Shown: piece by piece, positions 2,258-8,897 of the stretch
Layout: each line of letters starts with the position of its first letter
Numbering within the stretch: position 1 is the first letter of the stretch
From: a virus
Virus record (IMG/VR): IMGVR_UViG_3300020060_000018
Location: 1 to 36,258 of that record
DNA: 36,258 nt
Reading direction: 5' to 3' (one strand)
Made by a program: the position numbers and the translations under genes
Notes under the pieces: generated by a model
The model's database searches: none
What the model was told of the DNA's origin: nothing
The model's input: the letters and a program-made list of their open reading frames with translations, nothing else

Positions 2258-3553
2258 ATGAAGCTAGAAGCGCCAGAGAATGCTAACTACGCGGCTACGG
2301 TCGTGGAATTGAAGACCATCGTTGAACTAGATGGCTGCGACAACGTAAACGGTGCCAAGTTTTCGGGATATCAAGCTATCCTGAGTAAGGATCATCAGCC
2401 AGGAGAGCTTGGGGTATACTTCTCTGCCGAGACCCAGTTGTCAGAAGAGTTTGCTTCATTCAACAACCAGTACCGGGACGAGAATCTTAACAAGGACAAG
2501 ACCAAGAGCGGCTACCTTGAGAACAATCGCCGCGTCAAAGCGCTGAAGTTCCGTGGTCACGAGTCCAATGCTCTCTGGTTTCCGATCGAGTCTCTGAGCT
2601 ACATCAAGGGATACAAGGAGCTACAGCCCGGCGACACATTTGACAAGCTTGGCACTCATGAGATCTGCAAGAAGTACACCCTTCCCGTGAAGCAGAGCCA
2701 GAACAACTTGGCCAAGAACAAGGTCAAGTCTTTCTCTCGCGTTGACAAGCAGTTTTTCCCTCTCCATTTCGATACTGACCAGTATTTTAGGAACTCGCAC
2801 ACTGTGCCTGCTGACCGTGAGGTTGTCGTCACACAGAAGATCCACGGGACCTCAGTCCGCATCGCAAACACCCTGGTCGCCCGCGAGCTTAACTGGAAGG
2901 AGAAACTGGCCAAGCGGTTCGGCGTGCCTGTCAAGGAGACCGAGTACGATCTAATCTTCGGCTCACGTCGAGTTACCAAAGACATCAACAACCCGAACCA
3001 GCAGCACTTCTACGCCGCTGACGAGGCAGGTTACGATCTCTGGACTCAGGTCGGCAAGGAGGTAGGTGACGTTCTCCCACAGGGCTATATTTTGTACGGC
3101 GAGATCATCGGTTGGACCAAGGACGGCGGGGCCATTCAGTCCGGCTACACTTACTGCCTGCCTCAGGGTACCCACGAGCTTTACGTCTACCGCATCGCTC
3201 AGATCAACCCTCAGGGGCGCTCTGTTGACCTATCCTGGGATCAGGTAGTCGAGTTCTGCGAGGACAATAACTTGAAGTCTGTGCCCGAGCTTTGGCGTGG
3301 ACCTCACTTCGAGTTCAAGGCAGAGACTTGGCTGGATGTGCGTTACCACGACGGCCTTGGCTTGGAGAACGCCCTTCCTCTTGAGAAGAGCACGAAGAAG
3401 AACCCGATCGTTGACGAAGGCGTTTGCATCCGCGTCGAGGGTCTGGTACCGTACGTGCTGAAGGCAAAGAGCCCAGTCTTTTATGAGTACGAGACTAAGC
3501 AGCTTGATACAGGCGAAGCAGACCTAGAGTCAGCCGAAGCAGAGGAGGTTTAA
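2258..3553 (+). CDS. RNA ligase, Rnl5/DraRnl-like architecture
   Basis: 431-residue ATP-dependent RNA ligase. Start ATG 2258 has AAGGAGAAGAGA upstream; a longer frame to 2108 overlaps the preceding gene and is rejected. The nucleotidyltransferase motifs are visible: motif I TQKIHGTSV with the adenylated Lys194, LYGEIIGW (motif III region), EGVCIRVEG (motif IV) and LKAKSP (motif V). About 180 residues precede motif I, and they include an RVKALKFRG...LWFPI segment typical of the N-terminal OB-like domain of DraRnl-type ligases. It abuts the end-healing kinase-phosphatase, forming an RNA repair pair like T4 Pnkp/Rnl1 in logic, which would restore tRNAs cut by host anticodon nucleases. Exact ligase subfamily is inferred. 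Confidence 0.9.
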   Translation: MKLEAPENANYAATVVELKTIVELDGCDNVNGAKFSGYQAILSKDHQPGELGVYFSAETQLSEEFASFNNQYRDENLNKDKTKSGYLENNRRVKALKFRGHESNALWFPIESLSYIKGYKELQPGDTFDKLGTHEICKKYTLPVKQSQNNLAKNKVKSFSRVDKQFFPLHFDTDQYFRNSHTVPADREVVVTQKIHGTSVRIANTLVARELNWKEKLAKRFGVPVKETEYDLIFGSRRVTKDINNPNQQHFYAADEAGYDLWTQVGKEVGDVLPQGYILYGEIIGWTKDGGAIQSGYTYCLPQGTHELYVYRIAQINPQGRSVDLSWDQVVEFCEDNNLKSVPELWRGPHFEFKAETWLDVRYHDGLGLENALPLEKSTKKNPIVDEGVCIRVEGLVPYVLKAKSPVFYEYETKQLDTGEADLESAEAEEV

Positions 3554-4473
3554 TGGTTAAGTTGATCCTGACTAGGGGTTATTCCGGCAGCGGCAAGACC
3601 TCGTACGCCAAGGACTGGCTGTCGTATGACTCAGAGAACCGACTGCGTACTAATCGTGACGATCTCCGAGAGTCACTGTTCAATCAACAAGGTGTACTGT
3701 CACAGGACAAGGAAGGTATCGTCACGTCTGTCCAACGCAGTGTCGCCAAGAAGGCTCTCCAGCAGGGCAAGGATGTTGTCTGTGATGATACCAACCTTGT
3801 CCGCAAGTACGCCGTGGAGTGGGCTAACCTGGCTCAGGAGGTTGGCGCAGAGTTCGAGGTCGTTGACTTCAAGACTCCTCTCGAAGAATGCCTACGTCGC
3901 AACCTTGAGCGTGCTAGCATCTATGAAGGTCGTTTCGTGCCAGAGGATGCCATTCGTAAGCAGGCTGCTCGGTTCCCATTCAAGCAGTGGGGTACTATCG
4001 TGGCTAAGGAAGGCGTCAGTACCTTCGAGGTAGTTCCGTACGAGCGCGCTGGCATGATGCCTGTCTACCTGGTGGATGTTGATGGTACTGTCGCACAAAT
4101 GGGCGACCGGAGAGGGCCGTTTGATTGGGACAAAGTAGGTCTGGACACACCACGAATGGATGTGATTCGCGTTGTCAATGAACTGTCTAACAATGCAGAG
4201 ATTATCTTCCTTTCTGGTCGTGACGGTAGCTGCTACGCCGAAACACTCGAATGGTTGTCCAATTATACTTTCCTCCTTGACGCACCTATAGAGCTGTACA
4301 TGCGGACAGAAGGTGACATGCGTCCTGACTATGTGGTAAAGTATGAACTCTTCAACCAGCATGCTCGTCATCACAATATCAGAGGCGTTTTTGACGATCG
4401 GCCGATGATGAATCGCCTGTGGAGGAAACTAGGTATTACGACATTTGATGTTGGTGATGGAGTGGAGTTTTAG
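3553..4473 (+). CDS. Polynucleotide 5'-kinase/3'-phosphatase (PseT-like)
   Basis: 306 residues; the ATG overlaps the ligase TAA by one base and follows GAGGAGG. The N-terminal kinase has the P-loop GYSGSGKT (residues 9-16, Lys15). The C-terminal HAD phosphatase has DVDGT (Asp175, Asp177), FLSGRDG and GVFDDRP. This is the domain order of T4 PNKP, and it would turn 2',3'-cyclic phosphate and 5'-OH RNA ends into ligatable ends for the adjacent ligase. The last 18 residues (LWRKLG...GDGVEF) are matched by an orphan copy at 5427-5483 downstream of an inserted endonuclease gene, so the present 3' end may be a replacement brought in with that insertion. Confidence 0.93.
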   Translation: MVKLILTRGYSGSGKTSYAKDWLSYDSENRLRTNRDDLRESLFNQQGVLSQDKEGIVTSVQRSVAKKALQQGKDVVCDDTNLVRKYAVEWANLAQEVGAEFEVVDFKTPLEECLRRNLERASIYEGRFVPEDAIRKQAARFPFKQWGTIVAKEGVSTFEVVPYERAGMMPVYLVDVDGTVAQMGDRRGPFDWDKVGLDTPRMDVIRVVNELSNNAEIIFLSGRDGSCYAETLEWLSNYTFLLDAPIELYMRTEGDMRPDYVVKYELFNQHARHHNIRGVFDDRPMMNRLWRKLGITTFDVGDGVEF

Positions 4474-4475
4474 AC

Positions 4476-4495
4476 GATAGTTGTGATAAACTATC
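4476..4495 (+). repeat. Stem-loop before inserted endonuclease gene
   Basis: GATAGTT (4476-4482) and AACTATC (4489-4495) form a perfect 7-bp inverted repeat with a 6-nt loop. It occupies almost the whole gap between the PNK stop and the endonuclease ATG at 4500. There is no recognisable SD before that ATG, so this hairpin may limit its translation, as hairpins do in some phage homing endonuclease genes. Confidence 0.6.
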
Positions 4496-4499
4496 TTAC

Positions 4500-5183
4500 A
4501 TGACATATAACAGATTAAGTGAAGAAACTATCCAAGAAATTTATCGGCTAAACGAAAAAGGTCTGAGTAATCGCGCCATTGCCCGAGAACTTGATGGAGT
4601 AGACAGATATAGAGTTGCTTATTGGCTCAAACAAAAAGGTAGAGAGTGCGCCAGGTATAGAGGAGGCCCGCCAAAACCTTATAATGAAACAAGTTCGTAT
4701 TGTGGTAAATGTAATAAGATTATACCTAACGATAAGTTTCCTTGGGTAATCAATAGTATTGACGGTCGCAAATTATCTTATTGCATGCAGTGTAGATATC
4801 AACAATCCAGGCAAAATTTAAATAGTACTCCTGTAAAGTTCTGGACGGCTAAAAGCAATGCGATTAGAAGCCGCGCTAAACGAGATGGTATTGACTTTGA
4901 TTTACCGTTAGAACTACTGATTAATTTGTGGGAAAAACAGAATCATAAATGTTTTTATACGGATATCACACTCGTTCCTACGATTGGTAATGGCAAAAGA
5001 CCAGATTCACCCTCTGTTGATAGAGTCAACTCATCTCTCGGGTATCTTAGTGGCAATGTAGTAATTTGTGCATCAAGGATTAACAGTATTAAGTACGATA
5101 TGACGATGACCGAAATGAAAGAATGGACGCCGGATTGGTATCAAAGATTGGTTAACGCAGGATTTGTTGAGGAGGTATTATGA
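4500..5183 (+). CDS. HNH-type (probable homing) endonuclease with HTH and zinc-finger
   Basis: 227 residues. Residues 1-45 resemble a resolvase-type helix-turn-helix (LSEETIQEIYRLNEKGLSNR...). Cys68/Cys71 and Cys95/Cys98 form a likely zinc site. Residues 150-200 hold an HNH-like core: CFYTD, SVDRVNSSLGY, GNVVICASRINSIK. The gene is clearly richer in A and T than its neighbours, lacks an obvious SD, and sits at the 3' end of the PNK gene, all marks of a mobile endonuclease. Its target is probably the PNK 3' region of relatives lacking the insertion (inference). The ATG start at 4500 is the first available codon after the hairpin. Confidence 0.85.
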   Translation: MTYNRLSEETIQEIYRLNEKGLSNRAIARELDGVDRYRVAYWLKQKGRECARYRGGPPKPYNETSSYCGKCNKIIPNDKFPWVINSIDGRKLSYCMQCRYQQSRQNLNSTPVKFWTAKSNAIRSRAKRDGIDFDLPLELLINLWEKQNHKCFYTDITLVPTIGNGKRPDSPSVDRVNSSLGYLSGNVVICASRINSIKYDMTMTEMKEWTPDWYQRLVNAGFVEEVL

Positions 5184-5419
5184 AGTATACACAAGATGAA
5201 TTTGGTCTGTATCATGTAGAAATGGGTCCGGAGGCCGATCGAACCAGATTTCCTGCCGACCATCTTATGGTAATCTACGACGATTACGATAACCCTATTC
5301 AGGTGAAGGTCCACTCAGTAGTTGACCACTTAGTTGGTGGAGGATTCACTGTTAGATGTACTACTTATTTAGACAAAGACGAACGTGAGGTTTCAGACAG
5401 CGTAAATTGGGACAAATAA
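5180..5419 (+). CDS. Small hypothetical protein in the inserted segment
   Basis: 79 residues, ATG overlapping the endonuclease stop (TTATGA) with GGAGG upstream. It is acidic and beta-rich in appearance (ADHLMVIYDDYDNPIQVKVHSV). Like the endonuclease it is fairly A+T-rich, and it lies between the PNK stop and the orphan PNK tail, so it probably travelled with the endonuclease or was trapped between the two ends. No family recognised. Confidence 0.65.
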   Translation: MKYTQDEFGLYHVEMGPEADRTRFPADHLMVIYDDYDNPIQVKVHSVVDHLVGGGFTVRCTTYLDKDEREVSDSVNWDK

Positions 5420-5420
5420 G

Positions 5421-5483
5421 GTCAAGCTTTGGTTGAAGCTTGGACTAACCGTGTTCAATGTAGGAGATGGCACTGTATTCTGA
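5421..5483 (+). pseudogene. Orphan copy of the PNK C-terminus
   Basis: In the frame of 5421-5483 the DNA encodes VKLWLKLGLTVFNVGDGTVF and then a stop. Residues LW.KLG.T.F.VGDG..F match the last 18 residues of the PNK gene (4417-4473), about 12 of 18 identical, and both end at a stop at the same place. A stop codon at 5403-5405 closes the frame upstream and there is no start codon. At DNA level the two copies differ at many third positions, so this is not a recent duplication. It is best read as the original PNK 3' end left behind after an insertion carrying a foreign 3' end. Confidence 0.8.
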
Positions 5484-5516
5484 TTGACATGCACAACTAA
5501 AGAGAAGGGTGATAAC

Positions 5517-6368
5517 TTGTATAAATCAATGAAGCAACTTGTATTGAACGCTGATAATCCAGACCTCATCATCACACCGATGCTTAACCAGTATATGCTG
5601 GAGCATGGTGAGTTTATTGAGCCTTGGGCTCTCACGCGCGTTTTCGAGGAGCTAGAGAAGCCTGGCCGTAACAGGTCAGGCTCTTTCTCCGCGTCTGCTG
5701 CTGGTTCCTGCCTCCGCAAGCAGGAGCTAGGGTTTATCGGCGCGCCAGAGAAGTCAGTGCTCCCTGGCTACCAACTCAGCATCTTTACTCTCGGCACCTG
5801 GACGCACCGTATGTTGCAAGCCATTATGCTCAGTGCTAAGATCCTAGAAGACATCGAGATTCCGCTGGCATGGCCAAAGTACCAGGGGAAGGGCTCTGCG
5901 GACGGTAGAGGACATGTCTGGTGGGACCACGCTAAGTACCAAGGGCGAGAGTTTATCTTTGAAGGCAAGACAGTTTCTGCCCGTACCTGGGACAAGATGA
6001 CAGTAGAGATGAAAGCCGAGCATAGAAAACAGATCATCCGATACTGTCTCGTGTCCGGCATCCATCTCGCATCCTACTTCATGTTTGACAAAGGAAACAT
6101 CTCTGGTGGTGCTGGCTGGTATGAAATGGTTTTCGAGCCAACCAAGGAGGAGTTGGAAGAGTCCGAGGCCGAGCTTATCGAACTTAACCAAGCTGTAGCC
6201 GACAGAGAGTTACATGATTTACTGCCAGGATGTAAACTGAAGATAGGTACGGACTGGACGTACTGCGGATTCGGCAAGGGTTCTGGCCTCTGTCCAAAGG
6301 TCAAGTCGTGGGAAGATGCAGAAAGGAAGACTCTTGAATCAAAAGCTACGGCTAACGAAGCCGATTAA
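5517..6368 (+). CDS. Cas4/RecB-like PD-(D/E)XK exonuclease with four cysteines
   Basis: 283 residues from TTG 5517, chosen because AGAAGGG lies 7-8 bases upstream; ATG 5529 is too far from it. Nuclease residues are Asp129 (SADG) and Glu149-x-Lys151 (FEGKT). One cysteine near the N-terminus (Cys65, GSCLRKQ) and three near the C-terminus (Cys239, Cys250, Cys259) reproduce the one-plus-three spacing of iron-sulfur-containing Cas4/AddB nucleases. It probably resects DNA ends for the RecA-like recombinase. No CRISPR array or other cas gene is present, so the role is phage recombination, not adaptation. Confidence 0.8.
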   Translation: MYKSMKQLVLNADNPDLIITPMLNQYMLEHGEFIEPWALTRVFEELEKPGRNRSGSFSASAAGSCLRKQELGFIGAPEKSVLPGYQLSIFTLGTWTHRMLQAIMLSAKILEDIEIPLAWPKYQGKGSADGRGHVWWDHAKYQGREFIFEGKTVSARTWDKMTVEMKAEHRKQIIRYCLVSGIHLASYFMFDKGNISGGAGWYEMVFEPTKEELEESEAELIELNQAVADRELHDLLPGCKLKIGTDWTYCGFGKGSGLCPKVKSWEDAERKTLESKATANEAD

Positions 6369-8407: not shown

Positions 8408-8897
8408 ATATCCAGCCTTGACTTTCAATGGTCGTTTGCCTGATGCGTTTTGGTCAAAGGTGGACAAGACAGACCAATGTTGGGTGTGGCTTGGAGCGAT
8501 TAGCTCCAGTGGTTACGGCATGATTCGTATTGATAGAAAATACCATCTCGTTCACAGGCTATCCTATGCAAACCACGCCAAAGGTGTTCCTGAAGGTATG
8601 GTAGTGGATCATATGTGCCACAATAAAATATGTGTGAATCCACAACATTTGCGCTTAACCACTCACGGGCAAAATCACGAAAACTATAAAGGTTTACCTA
8701 ATCACAACAAGAGCGGAGTACGTGGAGTTTACTGGGACAATACTACTCAATCTTGGCGAGTAATTGTACAACACGATGGCAAGAAGCACACCAAGCGAGG
8801 CTTCGCTGACATTGCAAGCGCAGAGCAGTACTCAGTACAGTTACGTAATCAATTGCATACGCACAATGATGCAGACAGAACAGGAGAACGAAAATAA
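8388..8897 (+). CDS. HNH endonuclease with AP2-like DNA-binding domain
   Basis: 169 residues from ATG 8388, overlapping the helicase stop by 20 bases; longer frames run into the helicase body. The HNH core reads VHRLSYANH...VDHMCHNKICVNPQHLRLTT (about residues 57-102). The C-terminal part SGVRGVYWD...WRVIV..DGKKHTKRGF is an AP2-type three-stranded domain common in phage homing endonucleases. It is a freestanding mobile endonuclease wedged between helicase and the next gene, with A+T-richer codons than the helicase. Confidence 0.9.
   Translation: MTQTQNKYPALTFNGRLPDAFWSKVDKTDQCWVWLGAISSSGYGMIRIDRKYHLVHRLSYANHAKGVPEGMVVDHMCHNKICVNPQHLRLTTHGQNHENYKGLPNHNKSGVRGVYWDNTTQSWRVIVQHDGKKHTKRGFADIASAEQYSVQLRNQLHTHNDADRTGERK

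Follow-up and report, generated by a model that had tools for sequence, protein, structure and literature searches.

A freestanding endonuclease cassette that appears to replace the end of the PNK gene it enters in phages

Why should a phage genome carry the end of its gene for polynucleotide kinase (PNK), an RNA-repair enzyme, twice, the second copy lying behind an endonuclease gene? The question is raised by a sequence of 36,258 nucleotides from an uncultured phage (IMG/VR record IMGVR_UViG_3300020060_000018), which was analysed over its whole length and is here called the window. The original prediction was that the last 18 residues of the PNK (4417-4473) are echoed at 5427-5483, that about 12 of the 18 agree while most third codon positions differ, and that the echo has no start codon. 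The echo exists but is slightly longer than thought: the orphan is KLWLKLGLTVFNVGDGTVF and a stop at 5424-5483 (codons 5424-5480, TGA 5481-5483), and reads (NKV)KLWLKLGLTVFNVGDGTVF-TGA, where the bracketed residues precede the alignable part. Pairwise alignment over the 19 codons, with the stops aligned, gives 12 identical residues of 19. The type of divergence was predicted correctly, since the copies differ mostly at third codon positions and use a different codon at 10 of the 12 shared residues, the same codon being retained only for W and D. The lack of a start codon was also borne out, no ATG, GTG or TTG in the window sequence being able to open the full match. The orphan is placed 3' of the stop of a 79-aa ORF (5419) and 5' of a Cas4-like exonuclease gene (Table 1).

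The BLOSUM62 score of the orphan against the PNK end is 70; the highest score among 30 codon-shuffled windows was 37. In a generic tblastn scan of C-termini against the window, the PNK/orphan pair (E=3.7e-6) was the best non-self match of true genes among the matches listed, and these included no other convincing C-terminal echo. Chance is excluded as the origin of the likeness. A relic without a start codon cannot hold its protein sequence under third-position change, so both ends must have diverged as working PNK ends in separate genomes, and have come to lie together only recently. Very probably, the window carries a homing cassette from a donor phage, consisting of a diverged PNK 3' end, a freestanding HNH-type endonuclease and a small passenger ORF, and the orphan would be the displaced native end.

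Table 1. Features of the PNK locus (window coordinates unless a compared locus, L plus number, is named)
Feature	Position	Strand	Evidence or remark
PNK gene	3553-4473	+	Complete ORF; ends ...NRLWRKLGITTFDVGDGVEF then TAG
PNK kinase-domain half, putatively native	3553..4074	+	Phage-like codon usage to ~4075; Pfam AAA_33; nearest relatives L064/L065/L012/L011
PNK phosphatase-domain half, putatively imported with the endonuclease	4075..4473	+	Codon-usage changepoint; nearest relative L087; HAD_PNKP
Replacement PNK 3' end (RLWRKLGITTFDVGDGVEF, TAG stop)	4414..4473	+	After divergent target motif DDR-PMMNRLW; endonuclease-like codon usage
Small inverted repeat (GATAGTT...AAACTATC)	4476..4495	+	Just 5' of the endonuclease start codon
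Freestanding HNH-type endonuclease	4500..5183	+	GcrA-like HTH, Cys4 zinc site, PacI/Cas9-HNH-like nuclease domain
79-aa ORF, passenger in insert	5180..5419	+	Overlaps endonuclease stop
Right insert junction	5420..5423	+	Sequence comparison: ~1 codon from the equivalent Hannaconda and Persimmon/WhereRU junctions
Orphan native PNK 3' end, putative untranslated relic	5424..5483	+	C-terminus match; counterparts in endonuclease-free sisters
Cas4-like exonuclease gene	5517..6368	+	phrog_1706/1990; right flank, outside insert
Strong hairpins that overlap the endonuclease start codon or lie immediately 5' of it	L017 2447-2494 (and L026 equivalent); L032 1951-1993; L059 846-890; L038 2829-2880		

Between the PNK end and the orphan lie the HNH-type endonuclease gene and then the 79-aa ORF, the two-gene A+T-rich insert of the original prediction. 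Their GC contents are 0.38 and 0.42, against 0.48-0.53 in the other examined window genes that translate as intact ORFs. The 79-aa ORF matched no Pfam family, had a best PHROG match of E=0.065 and had no nucleotide match in phages; an equivalent was not seen in the PNK-linked relatives examined. Elsewhere in the window, a second HNH gene (8448-8897; HNH_3 and AP2, phrog_3593) lies directly 3' of a DnaB-like helicase gene, and no C-terminal echo of the helicase was detected.

The endonuclease matches the profiles of phrog_3322 (E~1e-24) and phrog_1035 (E~1e-20), and also phrog_3118. In its AF2 model (pLDDT 82), the N-terminal HTH resembles the DNA-binding domain of GcrA (TM 0.80 over 41 residues), and there is a Cys4 site. 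Foldseek matches of the C-terminal domain include PacI and Cas9 HNH domains, weakly (E 0.006-0.02), and PacI was also found by profile search, at E=0.034 only. Profiles and model together indicate a nuclease with an HNH-type fold and a DNA-binding domain, as expected of a freestanding phage homing endonuclease. The family shares with F-CphI/Endo VII that it belongs to the phage homing endonucleases and that the PHROGs it matches are labelled endonuclease VII. However, the F-CphI/EndoVII (DHHRN) family is defined by a conserved DHDH flanked by CX2-4C and CX2C (PMC6083498), and that assignment was rejected because DHDH is absent: the aligned position holds SVDR or SVDK in all five PNK-linked members, and model and profile lean to the PacI/Cas9-type HNH fold. 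In Persimmon and WhereRU the start of the endonuclease gene lies within a very stable hairpin (-30 kcal/mol in Persimmon, z -8.5), and Targaryen, L059 and L038 have significant hairpins 5' of it. That of the window is weak; its inverted repeat folds at -7.5 kcal/mol (z -1.25), which alone is not significant. Such hairpins could hold back translation of the endonuclease.

The four best relatives of the endonuclease in isolated phages, Hannaconda gp117, SpeedDemon gp1160, Persimmon gp199 and WhereRU gp197, all lie directly 3' of a PNK gene, in phages of Mycobacterium, Gordonia and Streptomyces. The best relatives in viral contigs also adjoin PNK, behind it in L038-L040, L042 and L043 and in front of it in L037. 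By its gene neighbourhoods, then, this endonuclease lineage is PNK-linked; in the L037/L145 contig it stands directly upstream of the PNK gene, not downstream. A second PNK C-terminus was found in only 4 of 114 PNK loci, those of the window, Hannaconda, Persimmon and WhereRU, all of which carry the PNK-linked endonuclease. At one site, close relatives differ in the presence of the endonuclease (Hannaconda and MiaZeal, Persimmon and Braelyn, SpeedDemon and Bantam). In the endonuclease-free sisters (MiaZeal and LittleE; Braelyn, Paradiddles and Evy), PNK ends as the orphan does and not as the fused copy. As judged from these sisters, the native gene end in Hannaconda and in Persimmon/WhereRU is the orphan, and PNK is fused to an imported one.

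The borders of the imported material can be followed in these pairs. The Hannaconda PNK gene equals that of MiaZeal/LittleE (96-100% per segment) to nt ~430; from there it resembles Bobby (up to 98%), except that the final ~65 nt agree with neither MiaZeal nor Bobby. Beyond the endonuclease the sequence returns to the PNK end of MiaZeal and what follows it there, with near identity from the codons CAG GTT GTG GAC onwards. An in-frame ATG before the Hannaconda orphan overlaps the endonuclease stop (L015 3145-3210), so that a 22-aa peptide could be made there. Persimmon and WhereRU share 655 nt at 100% identity, made up of the last 73 nt of PNK, a 51-nt spacer and 531 nt of the endonuclease gene; outside this tract identity is 83.3% in the PNK bodies, 90.6% in the orphan and 51.5% downstream. 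An identical tract inside diverged flanks means that the mobile unit is the recoded end plus the endonuclease, with sharp borders, the switch point in PNK lying ~73 nt before the stop. The Persimmon orphan is identical to the native PNK end of Braelyn from GTTGACATGTGG to the stop. An uninterrupted donor of the Persimmon replacement end was not found, the best candidates (Sushi23 and others) reaching 82.6%. In SpeedDemon, compared with Bantam, the last ~60 nt of PNK are replaced and the native end is deleted, which is why there is no orphan; in the L038 group the endonuclease is behind PNK and an orphan was not detectable. An orphan is therefore not obligatory.

The central claims of the original prediction, that the invader brought a recoded 3' end from a diverged phage and that this end kept the gene whole, are upheld by the sister phages of Hannaconda and Persimmon/WhereRU, which identify the fused end as the imported one, and by the window PNK being complete and in frame. 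It had proposed looking at endonuclease-free relatives and for a recombination breakpoint. The pairs above supply both, and in the window a codon-usage shift near 4075 marks the likely switch. No sister with the fused-type PNK end came to light, nor was the orphan found to be part of an unrelated conserved gene, the two outcomes named as speaking against the idea. A search of the collections with DNA, exonuclease, RNA ligase and endonuclease gave no endonuclease-free sister of the window phage itself, nor a relative close enough for a direct breakpoint. Consequently, that the orphan is native there is argued from the analogous cases and from codon usage, the PNK end being endonuclease- or insert-like and the orphan phage-like (one-sided permutation p=0.009, 19 codons).

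How much of the window PNK came with the endonuclease can be estimated from the gene itself. A codon-usage likelihood test of phage genes against insert genes puts a changepoint where the phosphatase motif DVDGT begins, at nt ~4075 (t=4.64, permutation p<0.0005, 0/2000); the highest control, dnaB, reaches t=3.58, which makes the test alone a moderate one. A changepoint in GC3 only was not significant (p=0.07). The N-terminal half of the protein is closest to L064 and the C-terminal half to L087, which is only rank 87 for the N-terminal half, and the concordance of nearest relatives between the two halves is the lowest among 97 PNKs. The window PNK would thus be a hybrid of a native 5' part and an imported 3' part. 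Given the shift at 4075 and the discordant halves, the imported tract is probably ~400 nt, similar to that of Hannaconda. Of the predicted recoded tract at 4417-4473, the recoded end is retained but its limit to those positions probably is not.

The right junctions of Hannaconda, Persimmon/WhereRU and the window lie no more than ~1 codon apart, in the codons (xQVVxxW) that follow the phosphatase motif DDR. Over 97 distinct PNKs, this stretch is strongly conserved (Q in 82/97, V in 92/97 and V in 82/97). Three of the five endonuclease-linked PNK ends depart from DDRxQVVxxW, with PMMNRLW in the window, KQVCEMW in Hannaconda and DSVVALW in SpeedDemon, which would fit a replacement end without the target. 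In Persimmon/WhereRU the protein motif QVVDMW is unchanged and most of its codons are changed, so any immunity there would have to rest on synonymous changes. It is plausible that the changed QVVxxW codons in the window removed the cleavage site.

Other origins for the two ends can be weighed against this evidence. A local duplication of the PNK 3' end, with the endonuclease entering later between copies that then drifted, would account for an insert flanked by two tandem copies, and no donor of the 4414-4473 version is known. It is strongly opposed by the synonymous divergence of a startless orphan: 10 of the 12 conserved residues differ synonymously from PNK, which implies protein-level selection on both copies. 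Moreover, in Persimmon, WhereRU and Hannaconda the orphan is the sister's native end and the fused copy is foreign, so that duplication in place is highly improbable. The roles of the ends might instead be exchanged, the PNK end being native and the endonuclease having arrived with a downstream flank that held another phage's PNK end. Similarity alone fits either copy, since the best PNK C-terminus matches of both overlap. Even so, this arrangement is very unlikely, given the endonuclease-like codon usage of the PNK end and the phage-like usage of the orphan (p=0.009), the different nearest relatives of the 3' and 5' halves of PNK, and the native orphan in every case with sister phages.

HNH endonucleases often ride in introns, and the order and open frame of the orphan would suit a second exon of a degenerate self-splicing intron or intein. 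But a complete in-frame PNK C-terminus and stop already stand 5' of the insert, so splicing would duplicate the end, not restore it. There was no Rfam intron match in window 4300-5700 at E<=1 or in five related loci at the gathering threshold, and no group I or group II intron RNA structure was found; the explanation was rejected and is scarcely credible. The orphan might have a function, for instance as a short peptide or a regulatory site, instead of being a relic, but this is unlikely. Its undecayed state and the 22-aa peptide allowed by the in-frame ATG in Hannaconda would suit such a function. However, the window orphan has no start codon, SpeedDemon manages without an orphan, and the absence of decay is accounted for if the insertion is recent or the orphan serves as a homology arm.

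We return, then, to the homing cassette. Sequence comparison shows the orphan and its counterparts in phages with sisters, as well as the mobile unit, the shared codons of insertion and the hybrid PNK; the cleavage, immunity and homology-arm role described here are our proposal for how they arose. The endonuclease would cut a PNK gene that lacks the endonuclease, in the codons (xQVVxxW) following DDR, and the break would be repaired from the donor phage, so that the cassette is copied in. On the left side, homologous repair would fuse the donor PNK 3' part (probably ~400 nt, from DVDGT) in frame to the resident gene, and PNK would thereby stay whole. On the right side, the join would be made at the cut, so that the resident's last ~19 codons are pushed behind the insert as the orphan. 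Because the replacement end lacks the target (PMMNRLW, not xQVVxxW) and the orphan holds only half of one, the new allele should be immune. In a further round of homing the orphan may provide the homology arm on the right. Because the two PNK ends have diverged, recombination between them as direct repeats, and with it loss of the insert, should be suppressed.

A similar gene-end structure is found at other genes within the broad endonuclease family (phrog_3322). In L058/L059 and L055/L167, a small CCGNxCRHCPY-like gene is followed by the endonuclease and then by an orphan C-terminus; the endonuclease of L167 is frameshifted, and its orphan matches the intact gene end of the uninterrupted sister L057. 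The mirror image occurs in Streptomyces phage Targaryen (L032 1660-2550), where the first ~22 thyX codons, identical to those of Evy, are stranded upstream of the HNH insert. The working Targaryen thyX starts inside the 3' end of the endonuclease, with a recoded start in which almost all amino acids are preserved, and is identical to the uninterrupted gene of Evy right after the insertion point. Belfort thyX (L036 1640-2560) has this mirror arrangement too, and in L168 (2139-2960) a 30-aa N-terminal orphan (MTKEQIETSLDAMLENPKAKTFLNHLVRAF and a stop) lies upstream of the HNH gene, the gene downstream beginning with a diverged copy of it. A weak echo in L160 (E 1.8e-4), rich in K/E and placed ~385 nt after the endonuclease, was discounted as low-complexity sequence. 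Thus, the predicted insertion of an endonuclease at a gene end is supported by the orphan PNK ends, but it is not a single accident; it is an instance of a mobile cassette that recurs.

Integrases that replace 3' gene ends, as in e14/icd and tRNA islands, bring an incoming copy that restores the gene while the native end is displaced. Here, in contrast, there is no integrase or att site, but an endonuclease and homologous repair. Mobile ORF elements of fungal mitochondria include the Glomus atp6, atp9, cox2 and nad3 gene hybrids (PMC3630166) and an Allomyces macrogynus atp6 case that the same source credits to Paquin et al. 1994. In these, as here, a gene has an endonuclease ORF in its 3' part and, in frame, a foreign C-terminus in place of the resident one, and the displaced native C-terminus is found downstream, matching element-free relatives and diverging mostly synonymously. 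The window shows the endonuclease ORF at the gene-end region and the in-frame foreign end that keeps PNK complete; a displaced end identical or nearly so to element-free relatives is seen in Hannaconda, Persimmon/WhereRU and Targaryen thyX, the window having no sister in the collections. Unlike the LAGLIDADG type of Glomus atp6, the endonuclease here is of HNH type, in a phage, with PNK as target, and related phage endonucleases also act at gene starts (thyX, L168).

Amongst phage systems, the T4 freestanding homing endonucleases (Seg/Mob) resemble the cassette in standing next to a conserved gene, in presence/absence variation and in co-conversion of flanks (PMC2988022). The insertions set out in that review lie between genes or split a gene into two polypeptides (mobE in Aeh1 nrdA, mobA in gene 60), and duplicated gene ends did not turn up in it when it was searched by term; in the present cassette, the gene is whole by virtue of an imported end and the native end is displaced. 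In T4-like phages an unrelated endonuclease is also seen at the PNK end: in phage VR7, the gene of a MobE-like nuclease (L144 2494-3219), encoded on the opposite strand, shares the final 87 nt of pseT (PNK). In Cluster J mycobacteriophages, of which Hannaconda is a later relative, an HNH insertion gave Omega lysin A a new 3' end, for which a distantly related donor was suggested (PMC3706429). That insertion differs in having lost 35 bp of the target, and a displaced native end or a recurring cassette was not described. The ShiLan element, a hidden HNH in a phage methylase gene (PMC11855218), is likewise a non-intron, non-intein HNH inside a phage gene, but it is read through in frame, whereas the window cassette swaps the gene end. 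In the open-access literature we found no description of a displaced native end in phages, so its absence is not proven.

It thus seems largely right to see here a gene-end-replacing homing cassette, an architecture known from fungal mitochondria that now appears in phages and recurs across several phage genera and gene ends. We lean slightly towards a general phage class of such cassettes, which would home into conserved coding sequence without an intron or intein. A recoded, target-free part of the gene, from the cut site to the nearest 3' or 5' end, would travel with the endonuclease; the native end would be left as a half-site relic and homology arm, and the recoding would be kept by selection for immunity and against excision. 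Entry of endonucleases into conserved genes is usually discussed in terms of introns, inteins and intergenic insertion; these cassettes suggest that a freestanding selfish endonuclease can enter a conserved part of a useful gene and leave the gene whole. Isolated phages with sisters are available in which homing, immunity and co-conversion can be followed: the Streptomyces phages Persimmon/WhereRU with Braelyn, the Mycobacterium phage Hannaconda with MiaZeal, and Targaryen with Evy for thyX. Gene-end-replacing cassettes may also explain some of the gene-end mosaicism and the unannotated gene fragments of phage genomes.
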